A stretch of 45,822 nt of DNA from Chitinophagaceae bacterium. Lineage in GTDB: Bacteria > Bacteroidota > Bacteroidia > Chitinophagales > Chitinophagaceae. Location of the stretch: contig JAQBNK010000020.1 of the NCBI GenBank assembly GCA_028288595.1, positions 1 to 45,822 of the forward strand. The letters are read 5' to 3'. The stretch's first letter is position 1. Each line of letters begins with the position of its first letter. The translations under genes were made by a program, and so were the position numbers. Under the pieces are notes generated by a model that was given only the letters and a program-made list of their open reading frames with translations, ran no database searches and had not been told where the DNA came from. Shown here piece by piece: positions 26,245-44,886 of this stretch.

Positions 26245-26622
26245 ATGAAAAAGGTCACCGCCATCATATTGTTAGTGCTTTATGGCGCTGCTTCCAGCGG
26301 AGCAACGATCCATTTTCATTACTGTATGGATAAGCTGCGGGGCATTAATTTACTCAGCAGTACAAAAGACAGGTGTGATAACTGCGGAATGGTAAAGGCG
26401 AAAAATGCCTGTTGCAAAGACGTTCACAAAACATTCAGGACCGAAAAAAATCACCAGGGTGTAACCCTGTCATTCGTTCCTCCTGTGTTTTTTAACACCC
26501 CGCATGAGTATGTCATAAATAATTCTTCTTACCCGGTGCAGGAAAAGCCTGCGCAAATACAGAGCCGGCCACCGCCTCTTCTTGTTTCCTTATTTACCTT
26601 ATTCGGCAATTACCGCATTTGA
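26245..26622 (+). CDS. HYC_CC_PP family exported protein
   Basis: A small Bacteroidota protein of 125 residues named for three motifs, all present: HYC at residues 25-27 (in IHFHYCMDKL), CC at 56-57 (NACCKDVHK) and PP in QSRPPPLL near the C-terminus. A CDNC pair at 44-47 adds two cysteines. The N-terminus is a signal peptide (MKKVTAIILLVLYGAASSGA). Cys and His richness and the neighbouring HMA proteins suggest metal binding in the periplasm; no function is proven. I choose the ATG at 26245 over the TTG at 26233, because MKK begins a standard signal peptide. Confidence 0.85.
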   Translation: MKKVTAIILLVLYGAASSGATIHFHYCMDKLRGINLLSSTKDRCDNCGMVKAKNACCKDVHKTFRTEKNHQGVTLSFVPPVFFNTPHEYVINNSSYPVQEKPAQIQSRPPPLLVSLFTLFGNYRI

Positions 26623-26636
26623 TTTTTGTTTCTTTT

Positions 26637-26681
26637 GAACACGTAACCGTGTTCATGATGCTAAGCTTGTTCTTTGAGCTT
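26637..26681. promoter_or_regulatory. Two short inverted repeats before the first HMA gene
   Basis: GAACACG (26637-26643) and CGTGTTC (26648-26654) form a perfect 7-bp dyad with a 4-nt spacer, and AAGCT (26663-26667) mirrors AGCTT (26677-26681). Together they could be an operator, an RNA hairpin or a weak attenuator inside the metal cluster. Confidence 0.4.
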
Positions 26682-26720
26682 GGTGAATTCAATCATTCAT
26701 CATCAAAAAATATTTTTACA

Positions 26721-27071
26721 ATGAAAACTTTCTTATTGATAGCGGCAACTTTTGTATGCGCAACAGTATTCGCACAAAAATCAACGACTTCCTTTAAAGT
26801 CAGCGGCAATTGCAGTATGTGCAAAAAGCATATTGAGAAAGCCGCAACAACAGGCGGTGTAACAAAAGCCATCTGGAGCCAGGACACGAAGAAATTAACA
26901 CTCACTTATAATGCAGCTAAAATTTCTTCTGACCAGGTACAGCAAAAGATAGCAGCAGCCGGGTATGATACGGAAAAATATCGTGGCGATGATAAAGCCT
27001 ATAGCGCTCTGGATGAATGTTGCCAGTACGACAGGAAGAAAACAAATACAAAAACTTCAAATCACCAGTAA
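26721..27071 (+). CDS. Exported heavy-metal-associated (HMA) domain protein
   Basis: A 116-residue metallochaperone-like protein. The signal peptide is residues 1-19 (ending TVFAQ). The HMA fold has its metal site CSMC at 31-34 (SGNCSMCKKHIEKAA), and the GYD turn and beta strands follow. The C-terminal ECCQYDRKK adds a cysteine pair typical of Bacteroidota versions. The export signal places it in the periplasm, unlike the cytosolic CopZ chaperones. I use the ATG at 26721; the upstream frame from 26619 adds 34 residues that lack a plausible domain. The stop TAA and the next ATG share one base (27071), giving tight coupling to the next HMA gene. Confidence 0.9.
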   Translation: MKTFLLIAATFVCATVFAQKSTTSFKVSGNCSMCKKHIEKAATTGGVTKAIWSQDTKKLTLTYNAAKISSDQVQQKIAAAGYDTEKYRGDDKAYSALDECCQYDRKKTNTKTSNHQ

Positions 27072-27565
27072 TGAAAACTTTAATAATAATGTTCGCATCG
27101 CTGCTTATTGGCGGTGTTTCTTTCGGACAAATAAAATCGGTTTCACTGCAGGCCAGTGGTCTTACCTGCAGCATGTGCAGCAATGCCATCAACAAAGCAT
27201 TAAAAACACTTGACTTTGTAGAGAATGTTAATCCTAATATTAAAACATCAACATTTGAAATCACCTTCAAACCAAACAGTAGTGTTGATTTTGATAAACT
27301 AAAAGACAAGGTTGAAGATGCCGGTTTCTTCGTGTCAAAATTTCTTGCAACGATTCGTTTTGATAATGTGCAGGTAAAAAGCAATTCGCCTGTAACCATT
27401 GGTGATAAAACTTTTAAGTTTTTAAATGCTGATAACATTGCACTGAATGGAGACAAACAGGTCCGTTTGCTTGATAAAGGGTTTGTACCAGCGAAAGAAT
27501 ATAAGAGAAACAGTTTCGGGATTTCAACTGGTAATAATGAACGGGTTTATCATGCAACGATTTAA
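27071..27565 (+). CDS. Exported HMA domain protein with C-terminal extension
   Basis: It is 164 residues. The signal peptide ends near residue 20 (GGVSFGQ). The HMA domain carries CSMC at 33-36 (SGLTCSMCSNAINKAL). After the HMA fold (to about residue 95) comes an extension of about 70 residues with no recognised motif (KFLATIRFDNVQVKSNSPV onward). The start ATG at 27071 overlaps the preceding stop by one base. The end overlaps the barrel gene by 14 nt. Two exported HMA proteins in series may hand over a metal ion, probably copper; that is an inference from family and position. Confidence 0.88.
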   Translation: MKTLIIMFASLLIGGVSFGQIKSVSLQASGLTCSMCSNAINKALKTLDFVENVNPNIKTSTFEITFKPNSSVDFDKLKDKVEDAGFFVSKFLATIRFDNVQVKSNSPVTIGDKTFKFLNADNIALNGDKQVRLLDKGFVPAKEYKRNSFGISTGNNERVYHATI

Positions 27566-28370
27566 ATCTTTGCTGGCAGGTCTCGCGGTATTATTATCTC
27601 TTACTGCTACGGCGCAGGAATTATATGTATTTACCGAGCCTGCCAGTAACATGGCCGCAAGAAGCATAGGTTTGCGCCTCAACAACTCGCTGATGCGGGA
27701 AAGTGATGGTTCAAAGATCAACTATCATCTTATTCCTGAAATAATGGTTGGTGTTTCAAGGAAGACCATGCTGCATGGCGATATTTTTTTTAGTAACCGC
27801 ACTAATAGTTTTAGTGCGGAGGGTGCAAGTATCTATGGTAAATACCGTTTTCTGAGTAATGATGAAGTGCAGCGTCATTTCAGGATGGCCGCATTCTCCA
27901 GGATAAGTTTTAATAACAGTGATATACACCAGGAAGAAATAAATCTCTACGGACATAATACCGGTTATGAAGCGGGTGTTGTTGCAACACAGCTATTATA
28001 TAAAGTTGCCCTGTCATCCGGATTATCTTTTGTAAAAGCACTGAACAACGGGAACGGAAATAAATTTCCATATAAACTTAACGATAGTAAGGCCATCAAC
28101 TACACGTTTTCTGTTGGAAAATTAATGCTACCAAAAGAATACACCGATTATAAGCAAACGAACCTGAACCTGATGCTGGAATTCCTAAGTCAGTTCAATA
28201 CAGGATCCGGCAAGTACTATATTGATGCGGCGCCGGCAGTACAATTTATTTTTAACAGCCAGGGGAGAATAGATGTGGGTTATCGGGAACAATTAAGATC
28301 AACGTTGTTAAGAACTGCACCTGGAGGATTATTTGTAAGATTAGAATACAATCTTTTTAATGTGTATTAA
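27552..28370 (+). CDS. Hypothetical outer-membrane beta-barrel protein of the metal cluster
   Basis: It is 272 residues. The signal peptide is residues 1-21 (MQRFKSLLAGLAVLLSLTATAQ). The mature part looks like a barrel, with alternating strands such as INYHLIPEIMVGVSRKTMLHGDIFF, GRIDVGYREQL and GLFVRLEYNLFNVY, the last ending in a terminal aromatic residue as outer-membrane proteins do. I choose the ATG at 27552 because its signal peptide begins with MQRFKS; the in-frame ATG at 27537 would add five residues. It overlaps the second HMA gene by 14 nt, so it belongs to the same operon. Its partners suggest a role in outer-membrane metal handling, not demonstrated. Confidence 0.78.
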   Translation: MQRFKSLLAGLAVLLSLTATAQELYVFTEPASNMAARSIGLRLNNSLMRESDGSKINYHLIPEIMVGVSRKTMLHGDIFFSNRTNSFSAEGASIYGKYRFLSNDEVQRHFRMAAFSRISFNNSDIHQEEINLYGHNTGYEAGVVATQLLYKVALSSGLSFVKALNNGNGNKFPYKLNDSKAINYTFSVGKLMLPKEYTDYKQTNLNLMLEFLSQFNTGSGKYYIDAAPAVQFIFNSQGRIDVGYREQLRSTLLRTAPGGLFVRLEYNLFNVY

Positions 28371-28406
28371 AATGGGCGGTATGAGCTAATATTTTTATGC
28401 AGGCTA

Positions 28407-28991
28407 TTAACGCACTGTGCGTTCTGAAATTATAATTGTATTGGCAATCGAATCAATAACATGGTCCCTGGTATACTGTTTATAAATTTTCGCAATAGAA
28501 ATAGCGATCTTATGCTGAATGGAAGTCAGGTTCAAAAATCCCTGGTCAATGATCGGCTTTGAAGAAACAACCACAGATTGCTTCCTTATAGCATTTAAAA
28601 TATTTAACGATTTGATATAAAAAGAATCGTTGTTATAATCTGGTTCATGATTGCTGATGTAATGAACAAAAATGCTATCCTGCTGTTGCAGGCGCTCTGT
28701 TAATCTTTTCGTTCTTGCCTTAATCAGGGTATCCCTCGTTCGCATATTTACAAGATTAGCCATCTCCATCACACGCTCATGATGCAATAACATCATCCGG
28801 GAAAAGTCAATGTCAGGATCACCAGTTACTTCCATATTTTGTTTTATATCAGTAACCATATCCTGAACCATATTGTTAAGGCGAGCGGTATCTTCTTTTG
28901 CGATAATTGCCTGCAACTCCTGGTTTTGGGTTGTATAGTTGCAGGAACAAACCACAGAGTAAGCCAGGAGTAAGAATATTTGCTTCCGCAC
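28407..28991 (-). CDS. DUF305-like lipoprotein
   Basis: It is 194 residues with a GTG start (28989-28991). The N-terminus MRKQIFLLLAYSVVCSCN is a lipoprotein signal with the lipid Cys at 17 (or 15). IDFSRMMLLHHERVMEMANLV (in two parts: residues 61-70 and 71-81) matches the DUF305 signature, an aspartate-rich start and a paired His at 70-71. LTERLQQQDSIFVHYIS fits the second helix of that domain. DUF305 proteins often occur with copper resistance genes, and this one converges on the HMA/barrel operon, separated by only 36 nt. The metal ligand set is incomplete in a simple reading, so 'DUF305-like' is the safest label. Confidence 0.72.
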   Translation of the reverse strand: MRKQIFLLLAYSVVCSCNYTTQNQELQAIIAKEDTARLNNMVQDMVTDIKQNMEVTGDPDIDFSRMMLLHHERVMEMANLVNMRTRDTLIKARTKRLTERLQQQDSIFVHYISNHEPDYNNDSFYIKSLNILNAIRKQSVVVSSKPIIDQGFLNLTSIQHKIAISIAKIYKQYTRDHVIDSIANTIIISERTVR

Positions 28992-42985: not shown

Positions 42986-43933
42986 GTGATAAAAATCGAA
43001 TATAATCAAACCGATTACATGGAAGTGCTGCGCCATATGGGCAGGCAGCTGGATGTAAAAATGAACGGCAGCAAAATCAGCATGCCGGCAGATGTTGCAG
43101 AAGGAACTGTTTCGCTGGTTGAGTTCCCGAATAATTTACAGGTGATGATATCCGACTACATTGTAAAACAGGATGTATTACTTCACCGCAAAAAAAATAA
43201 TAAAGAACATTTCTCCTTACGCTTCGATGAATTAACTGATCCATCAGGGGTCAGAAAAAATTCGATCTTTTTATACAACACCAAATACGAGTCGTTTCAC
43301 CTGCATAATAATGATACCACTGTAAAAAGCGTAACGGTAGGACTTGAAAAAAAATGGCTGGAACAATTCTTAAGCGCAGACGCAGCAGGAGATGAAATAT
43401 TTAAATACATCCTGCTTAAAGTAACTGCCTTTCATTTTGATATTATGGATAATGAAATAAGGCAGGTGTTTAAAGAATTACTCGAAACTGATACGTCTTT
43501 TCCCGGTGTAAAAATTATACAGTATAACAGGGTAATGTTATTGATAGAAAGTTTTTTTTCGAAGATATATAAGAAGATCAGCGATACTCATTTTGAAGCA
43601 AGGCTCACCAAAGATGAAATAGCCCGTTTAAAAGTAGTTGAGTCGGGCCTGATGCAGGATTTTAGTATGCCACCGCCACCGATTAATAAATTATCGCAGA
43701 TGGCAGCTATGAGTCCGTCGAAATTTAAAAATGTGTTTAAAGACATGTATGGGCTTCCTGTATACCAGTATTACCAGAAACACCGGATGCAAAAAGCAAA
43801 AGCCATGCTGCTGTCGGGAAAATATTCAGTGAAAGAAGTAGGATATGAACTGGGTTATGCGAATATTAATAATTTCAGTAAGGCATTTCGTAAGGCATTC
43901 GACCAGTTACCAGTTCAATTGATCAGGCAATGA
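42986..43933 (+). CDS. AraC family transcriptional regulator (tandem copy 1)
   Basis: It is 315 residues with a GTG start (42986-42988). The N-terminal two thirds (about 1-210) match no ligand-binding domain I recognise. The C-terminal DNA-binding part has two helix-turn-helix units: INKLSQMAAMSPSKFKNVFKD (about 228-248), then the linker LPVYQYYQKHRMQKAKAML and YSVKEVGYELGYANINNFSKAF (about 283-304), ending FDQLPVQL. It is paralogous to the next gene: both share MSPxKxK, YGLPxYxYxQKxRM and SGxYSxKxVG. It overlaps that gene by 4 nt (ATGA). The ligand and targets are unknown. Confidence 0.88.
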   Translation: MIKIEYNQTDYMEVLRHMGRQLDVKMNGSKISMPADVAEGTVSLVEFPNNLQVMISDYIVKQDVLLHRKKNNKEHFSLRFDELTDPSGVRKNSIFLYNTKYESFHLHNNDTTVKSVTVGLEKKWLEQFLSADAAGDEIFKYILLKVTAFHFDIMDNEIRQVFKELLETDTSFPGVKIIQYNRVMLLIESFFSKIYKKISDTHFEARLTKDEIARLKVVESGLMQDFSMPPPPINKLSQMAAMSPSKFKNVFKDMYGLPVYQYYQKHRMQKAKAMLLSGKYSVKEVGYELGYANINNFSKAFRKAFDQLPVQLIRQ

Positions 43934-44886
43934 TTAAAATCAGCTACGATACCGACAGTTTTAACGATCTCTTGCCTGCTGTTGCAAGGGCCTTCAAAAC
44001 GAAGAATGAACTTAATAATCTTACAATAGATAACGAACTCGCTAAAGGTTATTGCTGGACCTTCACTACAACTGATAATATAAACCTGGTGGTATTTGAA
44101 TGTTTGGTTAAGGAAGAAATGGACGTTGATCACTTTGCAAGTCATGGCAGCACTTATATACTGAGTTTTATCGAAGCCAGCAGTACTGATGCGCAAAGGC
44201 AACCGGTTAAAAAAGTAAATCTATACAATGGCTCAGCAGATATCCATCGCCATATACCTGCCAATACTTCCGTAAGACTTCTGATGATATTTATTGAAAG
44301 AAAGCATTTGCTTCAATTGATGGACGAGGAAGCGGTAGACGCATTATTGAGTAATTATTTCGAGCGATTATTAAAGAATGGTAAGGCATCATTTCCCGAT
44401 ACAGATTACCGCGGACTTTTAGAAGAATTGATTGCACCTGAAATCAAACATCCATTAAAACATCATTTCATTGCGAACAGGATAATGCTGCTGGTTGAAA
44501 AGTTTGTTACAAAAAATCTTCAGAAAAGAGAACACCAGGAAACATCTTTCAGCGATAGTGAAATTAGCCGGTTAATGAAAGTTGAAGGGATACTCGTTAA
44601 AGATTTTTCTTTGCAGCCGCCGACTATAGATGAATTGTCAAAAATATCGGCGATGAGTCCGACCAAGCTGAAAAAAGATTTTAAATGTTTGTATGGTCTT
44701 CCTATTTATGAATATTTTCAAAAGAACAGGATGATAAAAGCACGGATGATGATATCATCAGGAGAATATTCAATTAAACAGGTAGGAAGAATGGTTGGGT
44801 ATACGAACCTGAGTCATTTTGCATCCAGCTTTAAAAAAGAATTTGGAATTCTTCCGAGCGAACTTTCAATTCATGCTGAAGGATAA
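43930..44886 (+). CDS. AraC family transcriptional regulator (tandem copy 2)
   Basis: It is 318 residues. The ATG at 43930 overlaps the previous stop (ATGA), which indicates translational coupling. Like copy 1 it has an unassigned N-terminal half and a C-terminal AraC double helix-turn-helix: IDELSKISAMSPTKLKKDFK and YSIKQVGRMVGYTNLSHFAS, with LPIYEYFQKNRMIKAR between. The two proteins clearly share an ancestor, with strongest similarity in the DNA-binding half; the N-terminal halves differ more. This fits duplication followed by divergence of ligand response. The C-terminus has a short extra tail (HAEG). Confidence 0.88.
   Translation: MIKISYDTDSFNDLLPAVARAFKTKNELNNLTIDNELAKGYCWTFTTTDNINLVVFECLVKEEMDVDHFASHGSTYILSFIEASSTDAQRQPVKKVNLYNGSADIHRHIPANTSVRLLMIFIERKHLLQLMDEEAVDALLSNYFERLLKNGKASFPDTDYRGLLEELIAPEIKHPLKHHFIANRIMLLVEKFVTKNLQKREHQETSFSDSEISRLMKVEGILVKDFSLQPPTIDELSKISAMSPTKLKKDFKCLYGLPIYEYFQKNRMIKARMMISSGEYSIKQVGRMVGYTNLSHFASSFKKEFGILPSELSIHAEG

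Follow-up and report, generated by a model that had tools for sequence, protein, structure and literature searches.

An operon on a contig of a Chitinophagaceae bacterium (assembly GCA_028288595.1, contig JAQBNK010000020.1) holds two adjacent genes, one for a small exported HMA-domain protein, here HMA2, and one for a predicted outer-membrane beta-barrel, here the barrel, and these form a conserved, coupled core whose genetic pairing is near-obligate. The window analysed is the whole contig of 45,822 nucleotides (nt), C63 of a 4.14 Mb genome that is 98.6% complete. Finding a small exported HMA protein and a barrel almost always side by side among environmental bacteria of one group, often by copper-resistance genes, suggests a new copper route over the outer membrane. 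We hold it about evenly balanced whether HMA2 is a periplasmic metallochaperone with a dedicated outer-membrane barrel, the pair letting metal, mainly Cu(I), leave the periplasm.

The pairing was most apparent in a set of 294 Chitinophagaceae genomes. HMA2 was found in 140 of these and the barrel in 139; 137 genomes carried both, three HMA2 only, two the barrel only (both weak matches) and 152 neither. As the genomes share ancestry, p-values for co-occurrence are not independent tests. Within each of four genera (g7, g15, g33 and g34) some genomes have both genes and others neither, and from this patchiness it follows that the two come and go together. As for gene order, the count covers listed matches only, those split in five genomes having been joined manually, and excludes unlisted ones. 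Of the 145 barrel places in it, 140 had HMA2 upstream in the same orientation at a distance of at most 800 nt, and for 84 of these the distance did not exceed 150 nt. The remaining five places comprise three with HMA2 further off and two with no listed HMA2, at one of which (G029) HMA2 does adjoin the barrel. Conversely, four of eight HMA2 places with no listed barrel are in genomes with a barrel match, and one (G055) stands beside a barrel in locus L150. Where HMA2 occurs without the barrel (G017, G063 and G036), the HMA2 frame ends early in one case and the neighbourhood is partly readable.

Similar results were obtained outside this set. In a pool of 110 loci (80 related loci and 30 family-search loci, partly overlapping), an HMA gene lay less than 800 nt upstream of 90 of 95 barrels counted as distinct by their last 150 residues. 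Of the other five loci, three (L050, L060 and L102) start at a contig edge or close to one; in L084 HMA2 lies 2.6 kb upstream, and L055 has no HMA gene. The 80 related loci are the best 80 of 166 and are titled mainly Chitinophagaceae, Pedobacter and Flavobacterium, many being metagenome-assembled; some share contigs with family-search loci, and 21 are shorter than 12 kb. A Bacteroidota-wide sample held the barrel in 22 of 296 genomes, five of them Chitinophagaceae (our own genome included); 21 of these 22 have an HMA-domain gene in the same orientation no more than 500 nt from the barrel. That neighbour is a MerT-HMA fusion in G392, while the barrel of G559 (L126/L154) has no HMA gene. Weak matches to the barrel profile in distant genomes (L155-L157 and L160) also adjoin HMA genes. 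A sequence-only reading of the window, made before this analysis, had named two outcomes that would count against its proposal of a metal-handling cluster: a cluster confined to this strain, or barrel homologues mainly in unrelated contexts. Neither was found, since the gene order is conserved well beyond the strain, in Chitinophagaceae, Pedobacter and Flavobacterium, and clear homologues of the barrel occur almost only beside HMA genes.

The pair and its neighbours in the window are arranged as follows.

26245-26622, + strand: HYC_CC_PP family protein (NF047658), 125 residues, Cys/His-containing and apparently exported; a frequent upstream partner.
26623-26720: gap of 98 nt with a perfect dyad; a possible operator or hairpin.
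26721-27071, + strand: HMA1, with a presumed signal peptide, an HMA domain (GNCSMC; borderline to PF00403) and a CCQY tail.
27071-27565, + strand: HMA2, with a presumed signal peptide, an HMA domain (GLTCSMCS; PF00403) and a C-terminal domain of about 75 residues, with evidence from the alignment of relatives and the structural model.
27552-28370, + strand: outer-membrane beta-barrel of 12 strands and unnamed family, from predicted structure and alignment; its mature N-terminus, QELYVFTEPASN, is highly conserved.
28407-28991, - strand: DUF305-domain protein (PF03713), a probable lipoprotein with a GTG start, convergent; a local neighbour outside the conserved unit.

The layout agrees with the earlier description: four genes on the + strand with overlaps of 1-14 nt (1 nt between HMA1 and HMA2, as TAATG, and 14 nt between HMA2 and the barrel), the 98-nt gap before HMA1, and a DUF305-like lipoprotein gene converging on them, 36 nt beyond the stop codon of the barrel gene. 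The lipobox and the export signals are assessments by eye, not by a predictor. That all five genes act as one unit was also proposed, and of this only the HMA2-barrel core stands. The HYC_CC_PP profile matched in 45 of the 80 related loci (64 with a Cys-rich look-alike of flavobacteria included) and HMA1-type proteins occurred in 33 of 80; as a phmmer search of the 109 remaining loci (29 of which extend only about 1.5 kb to each side) detected nothing related to the DUF305 protein, the five-gene unit was ruled out.

HMA2 is a confident member of its domain family (PF00403, 48.1 bits against a cut-off of 24.8) and falls well below the cut-off for MerP (TIGR02052, 27.1 against 92.55). Residues C33, M35 and C36 are invariant in an alignment (A2) of 48 sequences, namely the window protein and 47 of 48 selected relatives, L084 being omitted. 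In its model (mean predicted local distance difference test score, pLDDT, 88.5) the HMA domain precedes a small beta-domain, which carries the recurring motif DKGFV..KEFKK. Fold-match lists were filled by HMA domains, with those of copper ATPases, CopZ and Atx1 closest and MerP matching less well. The sole match in a plasmid search with HMA2 was the ATPase of one plasmid, across its HMA domain.

For the barrel, neither Pfam nor NCBIfam gave a family match at E ≤ 1, and a sequence search of solved structures with its profile gave three matches, the best at E 0.064. It is predicted with 12 strands (pLDDT 90.4). Conservation in the mature N-terminus (residues 22-37) is 3.65 bits on average, exceeding every turn or loop compared; from the presumed cleavage site to strand 1 there are only about 16 residues, among them one Met and no His. 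Strand residues assigned to the lumen average 3.25 bits against 2.52 for the others, where inward facing was assigned by polarity, which is clear in most strands and weak in two, so that these values are estimates. Among 51 sequences M73 and H109 never vary, while M65 and H75 are kept in 41 and 36; all four are assigned inward near the periplasmic end.

Structural comparison places the barrel among several functionally diverse proteins. The top-listed match was FapF (Z 21.2, root-mean-square deviation (rmsd) 2.7, 217 residues aligned, 8% identity), followed within about 1 Z, and thus tied, by the COG4313 channel 4rl8 (Z 20.2, rmsd 2.7, 217 aligned). KdgM (Z 19.7, rmsd 1.8, 170 aligned) and autotransporter barrels (Z about 16-18) also matched, and PcoB (7pge) stood at rank 40 (Z 12.5, rmsd 3.9, 183 aligned). 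Since the best folds include FapF, COG4313, KdgM and autotransporters, the fold alone says little on function. KdgM/NanC porins and autotransporter barrels share 12 strands and the fold only, and show how general this architecture is. Membership of the Phenol_MetA_deg family (PF13557), to which 4rl8 belongs, was considered and rejected: the profile comparison with ten PF13557 members (alignment A3, 10 of 36 listed places) gave an hhalign probability of 1, in line with the absence of a Pfam match. A PF13557-type barrel was also seen convergent with, and directly beside, the HMA2-barrel pair in L170 (G004).

The FapF match raises the prospect that the barrel exports another substrate, secreting a peptide or metallophore as FapF does amyloid, with HMA2 merely co-regulated. 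We regard this as very improbable. No substrate gene was recognised among the scanned cluster representatives, most unlabelled neighbours being outside that scan, and of the 142 genomes in which either gene occurs, 137 have the two together, a link tighter than co-regulation needs. FapF also carries a coiled-coil N-terminal domain before its plug, which the window barrel lacks, and no fap-like gene was recognised nearby.

Gating is a further alternative that the structure brings to mind. Metal-loaded HMA2 might open or close a general small-molecule pore under metal stress, with no metal handed to the barrel. The conserved segment before strand 1 would suit this, being apparently placed like the segments that plug the lumen in COG4313 and FapF (described in parts of PMC4493636 and PMC5557850, respectively), as would the balance of charges assigned to the lumen (9 Arg/Lys against 8 Asp/Glu). 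A gate would also fit the copper and mercury contexts described below equally well. We consider it improbable, if less so than export of another substrate.

Evidence for copper as the metal comes from the genes around the pair. The recurring order in the gene maps is HYC_CC_PP, sometimes HMA1, then HMA2 and the barrel. Among the 80 related loci, 17 contain a CPC-type ATPase (CPC and DKTGT motifs), 15 a multicopper oxidase and 12 a CusA-like protein of the resistance-nodulation-division type, with any of the three in 33; an AraC regulator with an HMA-like N-terminus occurs in 25, and any of the four in 44. A TlpA-like thioredoxin is present in 28; several of these have its gene immediately upstream of HMA2, between the two core genes or downstream of the barrel. 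Neighbour classes rest on one scanned representative per cluster. The copper P-type ATPase representative exceeded its cut-off (TIGR01511, 575.5 bits), while those of the copper_res_A-like oxidase (400.1 bits, cut-off 478.95) and CusA (620.1 bits, cut-off 701.45; a partial frame) fell below theirs, and for the AraC regulator Pfam gave only the helix-turn-helix domain, the HMA-like part having been seen by eye. Further representatives were assigned to DUF3347 and to TonB-dependent receptors.

The cluster had been described as lacking a pump and a MerR/CsoR regulator. For the contig the former stands, as no heavy-metal ATPase or CusA-type match was found in the window; no MerR/CsoR regulator was seen there either, by reading the list of open reading frames only. 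For the genome as a whole the claim fails. Contig C49 ends within a gene for a P-type ATPase that has an HMA domain and the CPC and DKTGT motifs, and contig C20 opens with a matching C-terminal part; the parts align to TIGR01525 at positions 1-348 and 378-560 and score 328 and 199 bits, neither of which reaches the cut-off (346). They apparently belong to one split gene, probably copper-type by its motifs. As this gene seems cut by a contig break, a draft annotation would show only ATPase fragments. The idea that the genome has no copper-type pump was thus ruled out. Contig C101 encodes an AraC-type regulator with an HMA-like N-terminus (PF00403 at 23.0 bits, below cut-off). In relatives, ATPase and regulator genes of these kinds are often part of the cluster itself. 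No CusA above cut-off was found in the genome (best match 478.7 bits, cut-off 701.45), nor any match at E ≤ 1e-60 to multicopper oxidase (TIGR01480) or NosZ. Copper is the best-supported metal for the cluster, as the sequence-only reading had expected.

On this basis a working mechanism can be sketched. HMA2 would collect a soft metal, mainly Cu(I), that is delivered to the periplasm by a P-type ATPase or leaks in, binding it through C33 and C36 as is expected from knowledge of the family. It would then dock at the periplasmic mouth of the barrel, where the conserved N-terminal segment, a presumed plug, and the Met and His residues may take the metal, or where HMA2 may gate the pore, and copper would exit the periplasm. 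HMA1, the HYC_CC_PP protein and the TlpA-like thioredoxin, where present, could serve as upstream buffers and keep the Cys pair reduced. We infer the relay from HMA2 to the barrel, the passage of metal and its direction.

The opposite direction also deserves consideration. The barrel might admit copper or a copper complex, which HMA2 would then bind in the periplasm for use by copper enzymes. TonB-dependent receptors are usually importers, and the HMA domain is joined to TonB-dependent receptor and carboxypeptidase-like domains in single frames at L101:2790-5477, L109:6851-9430 and L147:4924-7506, the last with an HMA match below cut-off in a genome that has HMA2 and no barrel. TonB-dependent receptor genes of one cluster also occur in 7 of the 80 loci. 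The receptor fusions thus favour uptake; the exporters and oxidases nearby, together with the negative link to NosZ given below, favour removal. The distant branch that accompanies MerTP and MerA also argues against capture for copper enzymes, as does the lack of a NosZ match at E ≤ 1e-60 in our genome. PcoB itself is argued to import copper in the parts of PMC9210255 available, and is treated as an efflux protein in those of PMC12509749. Outward flow is weakly favoured over uptake, which we consider unlikely but the strongest of the three alternatives.

Several observations weigh against removal of copper by HMA2 and the barrel, and we collect them here with the receptor fusions. Of the 80 loci, 21 of which are shorter than 12 kb, 47 yielded neither an ATPase nor an oxidase or CusA-like gene, and for 36 the regulator was not found either. 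Across the 294 genomes, multicopper oxidase showed no association with the pair (57 with both, 80 with the pair only, 54 with the oxidase only, 103 with neither; p = 0.23), where an E-value limit was applied as no genome of the 294 exceeded the model cut-off. NosZ, a copper enzyme, was negatively associated (62, 75, 103 and 54 in the same order). These counts ruled out that the pair tracks either enzyme across genomes. The balanced charges of the lumen also differ from the pore of PcoB, which is reported as electronegative in PMC9210255 (available in part); the same excerpts raise the objection that outward flow through an outer-membrane barrel has no energy source. Finally, copper is not the sole possible metal, given the mer contexts of two distant relatives.

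These relatives belong to a divergent branch of the barrel. Three of the distant barrels from L155-L157 and L160, aligned together (A4), matched the barrel profile (A1) with an hhalign probability of 96 (E 2e-9), and in reverse the A4 profile weakly matched copper-branch barrels of 10 genomes (E 7e-5 to 6e-7). Loci L213 and L214 read HYC_CC_PP, barrel, HMA protein, a gene that is lipoprotein-like by look only, and finally a long frame that contains HMA; the one of L213 encodes a copper ATPase (589 bits to TIGR01511, against a cut-off of 397). At two further loci the distant barrel accompanies mer genes: MerTP scores 182 bits in L220 and 241 in L221 (cut-off 180), and MerA 511 and 543, respectively (cut-off 454). 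The mer cluster of L221 has MerR and that of L220 a CsoR-family repressor, and the barrel match of L220 spans two reading frames. No HMA gene was found in the stretches fetched around weak A4 matches in G329, G440, G473, G547 and G573 (L215-L219), which may be other barrels; one of these (L219, G329) is divergent from a TolC-CusB-CusA-like set, recognised by eye. The plasmid search gave no match for the window barrel nor for one distant barrel, and carriage on plasmids was rejected. Possibly, although we lean against it, there is a class of chaperone-coupled metal channels, in which one barrel superfamily in several Bacteroidota lineages has an HMA partner that loads or gates each barrel, for copper mostly and for mercury in mer operons.

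Among known systems, PcoA-PcoB (CopA-CopB) appears by analogy to be closest in logic to the HMA2-barrel pair and is unrelated to it by sequence. Pfam holds a CopB family, to which, as to all others, the window barrel gave no match. In PcoA-PcoB a 12-stranded outer-membrane barrel gene likewise stands beside that of a periplasmic copper protein (PMC9210255 and PMC12509749, each in part), although the partner is an oxidase there and an HMA chaperone here, TIGR01480 being unmatched in our genome as noted. A His/Met-rich disordered N-terminal domain, ascribed to most PcoB/CopB homologues in the available part of PMC12509749, is absent from the window barrel. COG4313 has the same number of strands (12) and likewise a short N-terminal segment ahead of the first one, and is implicated in the uptake of hydrophobic molecules (PMC4493636, in part); the window barrel has no sequence-profile relation to it. 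FapF is likewise 12-stranded, differing as described above.

In mer operons HMA proteins also act at the envelope, and distant barrels are found in two MerTP/MerA clusters, whereas the window has no recognised mer genes and HMA2 does not reach the MerP cut-off. CusCFBA likewise has a periplasmic copper chaperone, CusF, supplying an outer-membrane exit. The chaperone is CusF there and an HMA protein here, the window barrel is not of the TolC type, and the genome has no CusA above cut-off. The Cus system is also named in PMC12509749. By sequence comparison, then, the HMA2-barrel pair is not PcoB, COG4313 or FapF, and there is a real chance that it forms a class of its own. Searches of the open-access literature with narrow terms found no description of the pair or its parts in copper handling, a weak absence. 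The available part of a study of the flavobacterium Bizionia lists periplasmic CopZ-like proteins and names no such barrel, proposing a TonB-dependent receptor for copper uptake and finding no porin-type route (PMC11213822). The passage of copper over the outer membrane is unsettled, and a near-obligate barrel and chaperone, two small proteins of one operon, make the question testable. If our reading is correct, it would supply a function for a barrel family that matches no Pfam or NCBIfam entry.

The accessory proteins vary more than the core. The HYC_CC_PP gene product exceeds its NCBIfam cut-off (NF047658, 38.2 bits against 28). In its place, L077 (4532-4927) and 18 other flavobacterial loci have a short, Cys-rich, apparently exported protein, a representative of which had no match at E ≤ 0.01 among Pfam and NCBIfam models; it is perhaps a functional replacement of HYC_CC_PP. 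HMA1 scored 23.6 bits against PF00403 alone (cut-off 24.8) and 24.9 with its frame neighbours, and has the CxxC motif; CCxY is present in 42 of 42 HMA1-type sequences, which were picked by motif and include that of the window. The DUF305 protein is above the Pfam cut-off (PF03713, 31.6 bits against 27) and below that for CopM (NF049983, 37.7 against 90).

The gap before HMA1 contains a perfect dyad with 8-nt arms, TGAACACG-TAAC-CGTGTTCA (26636-26643 and 26648-26655). A pattern derived from it post hoc occurs once in the window at ≤2 mismatches, with 0.04 expected. As a conserved operator it was rejected: the pattern was found in 4 of 144 loci, and as all four are copies of this same place, the cluster as such does not conserve the dyad. 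Elsewhere in the window, two adjacent and similar regulators, AraC-type by eye, lie in tandem on the + strand at 42986-44886.

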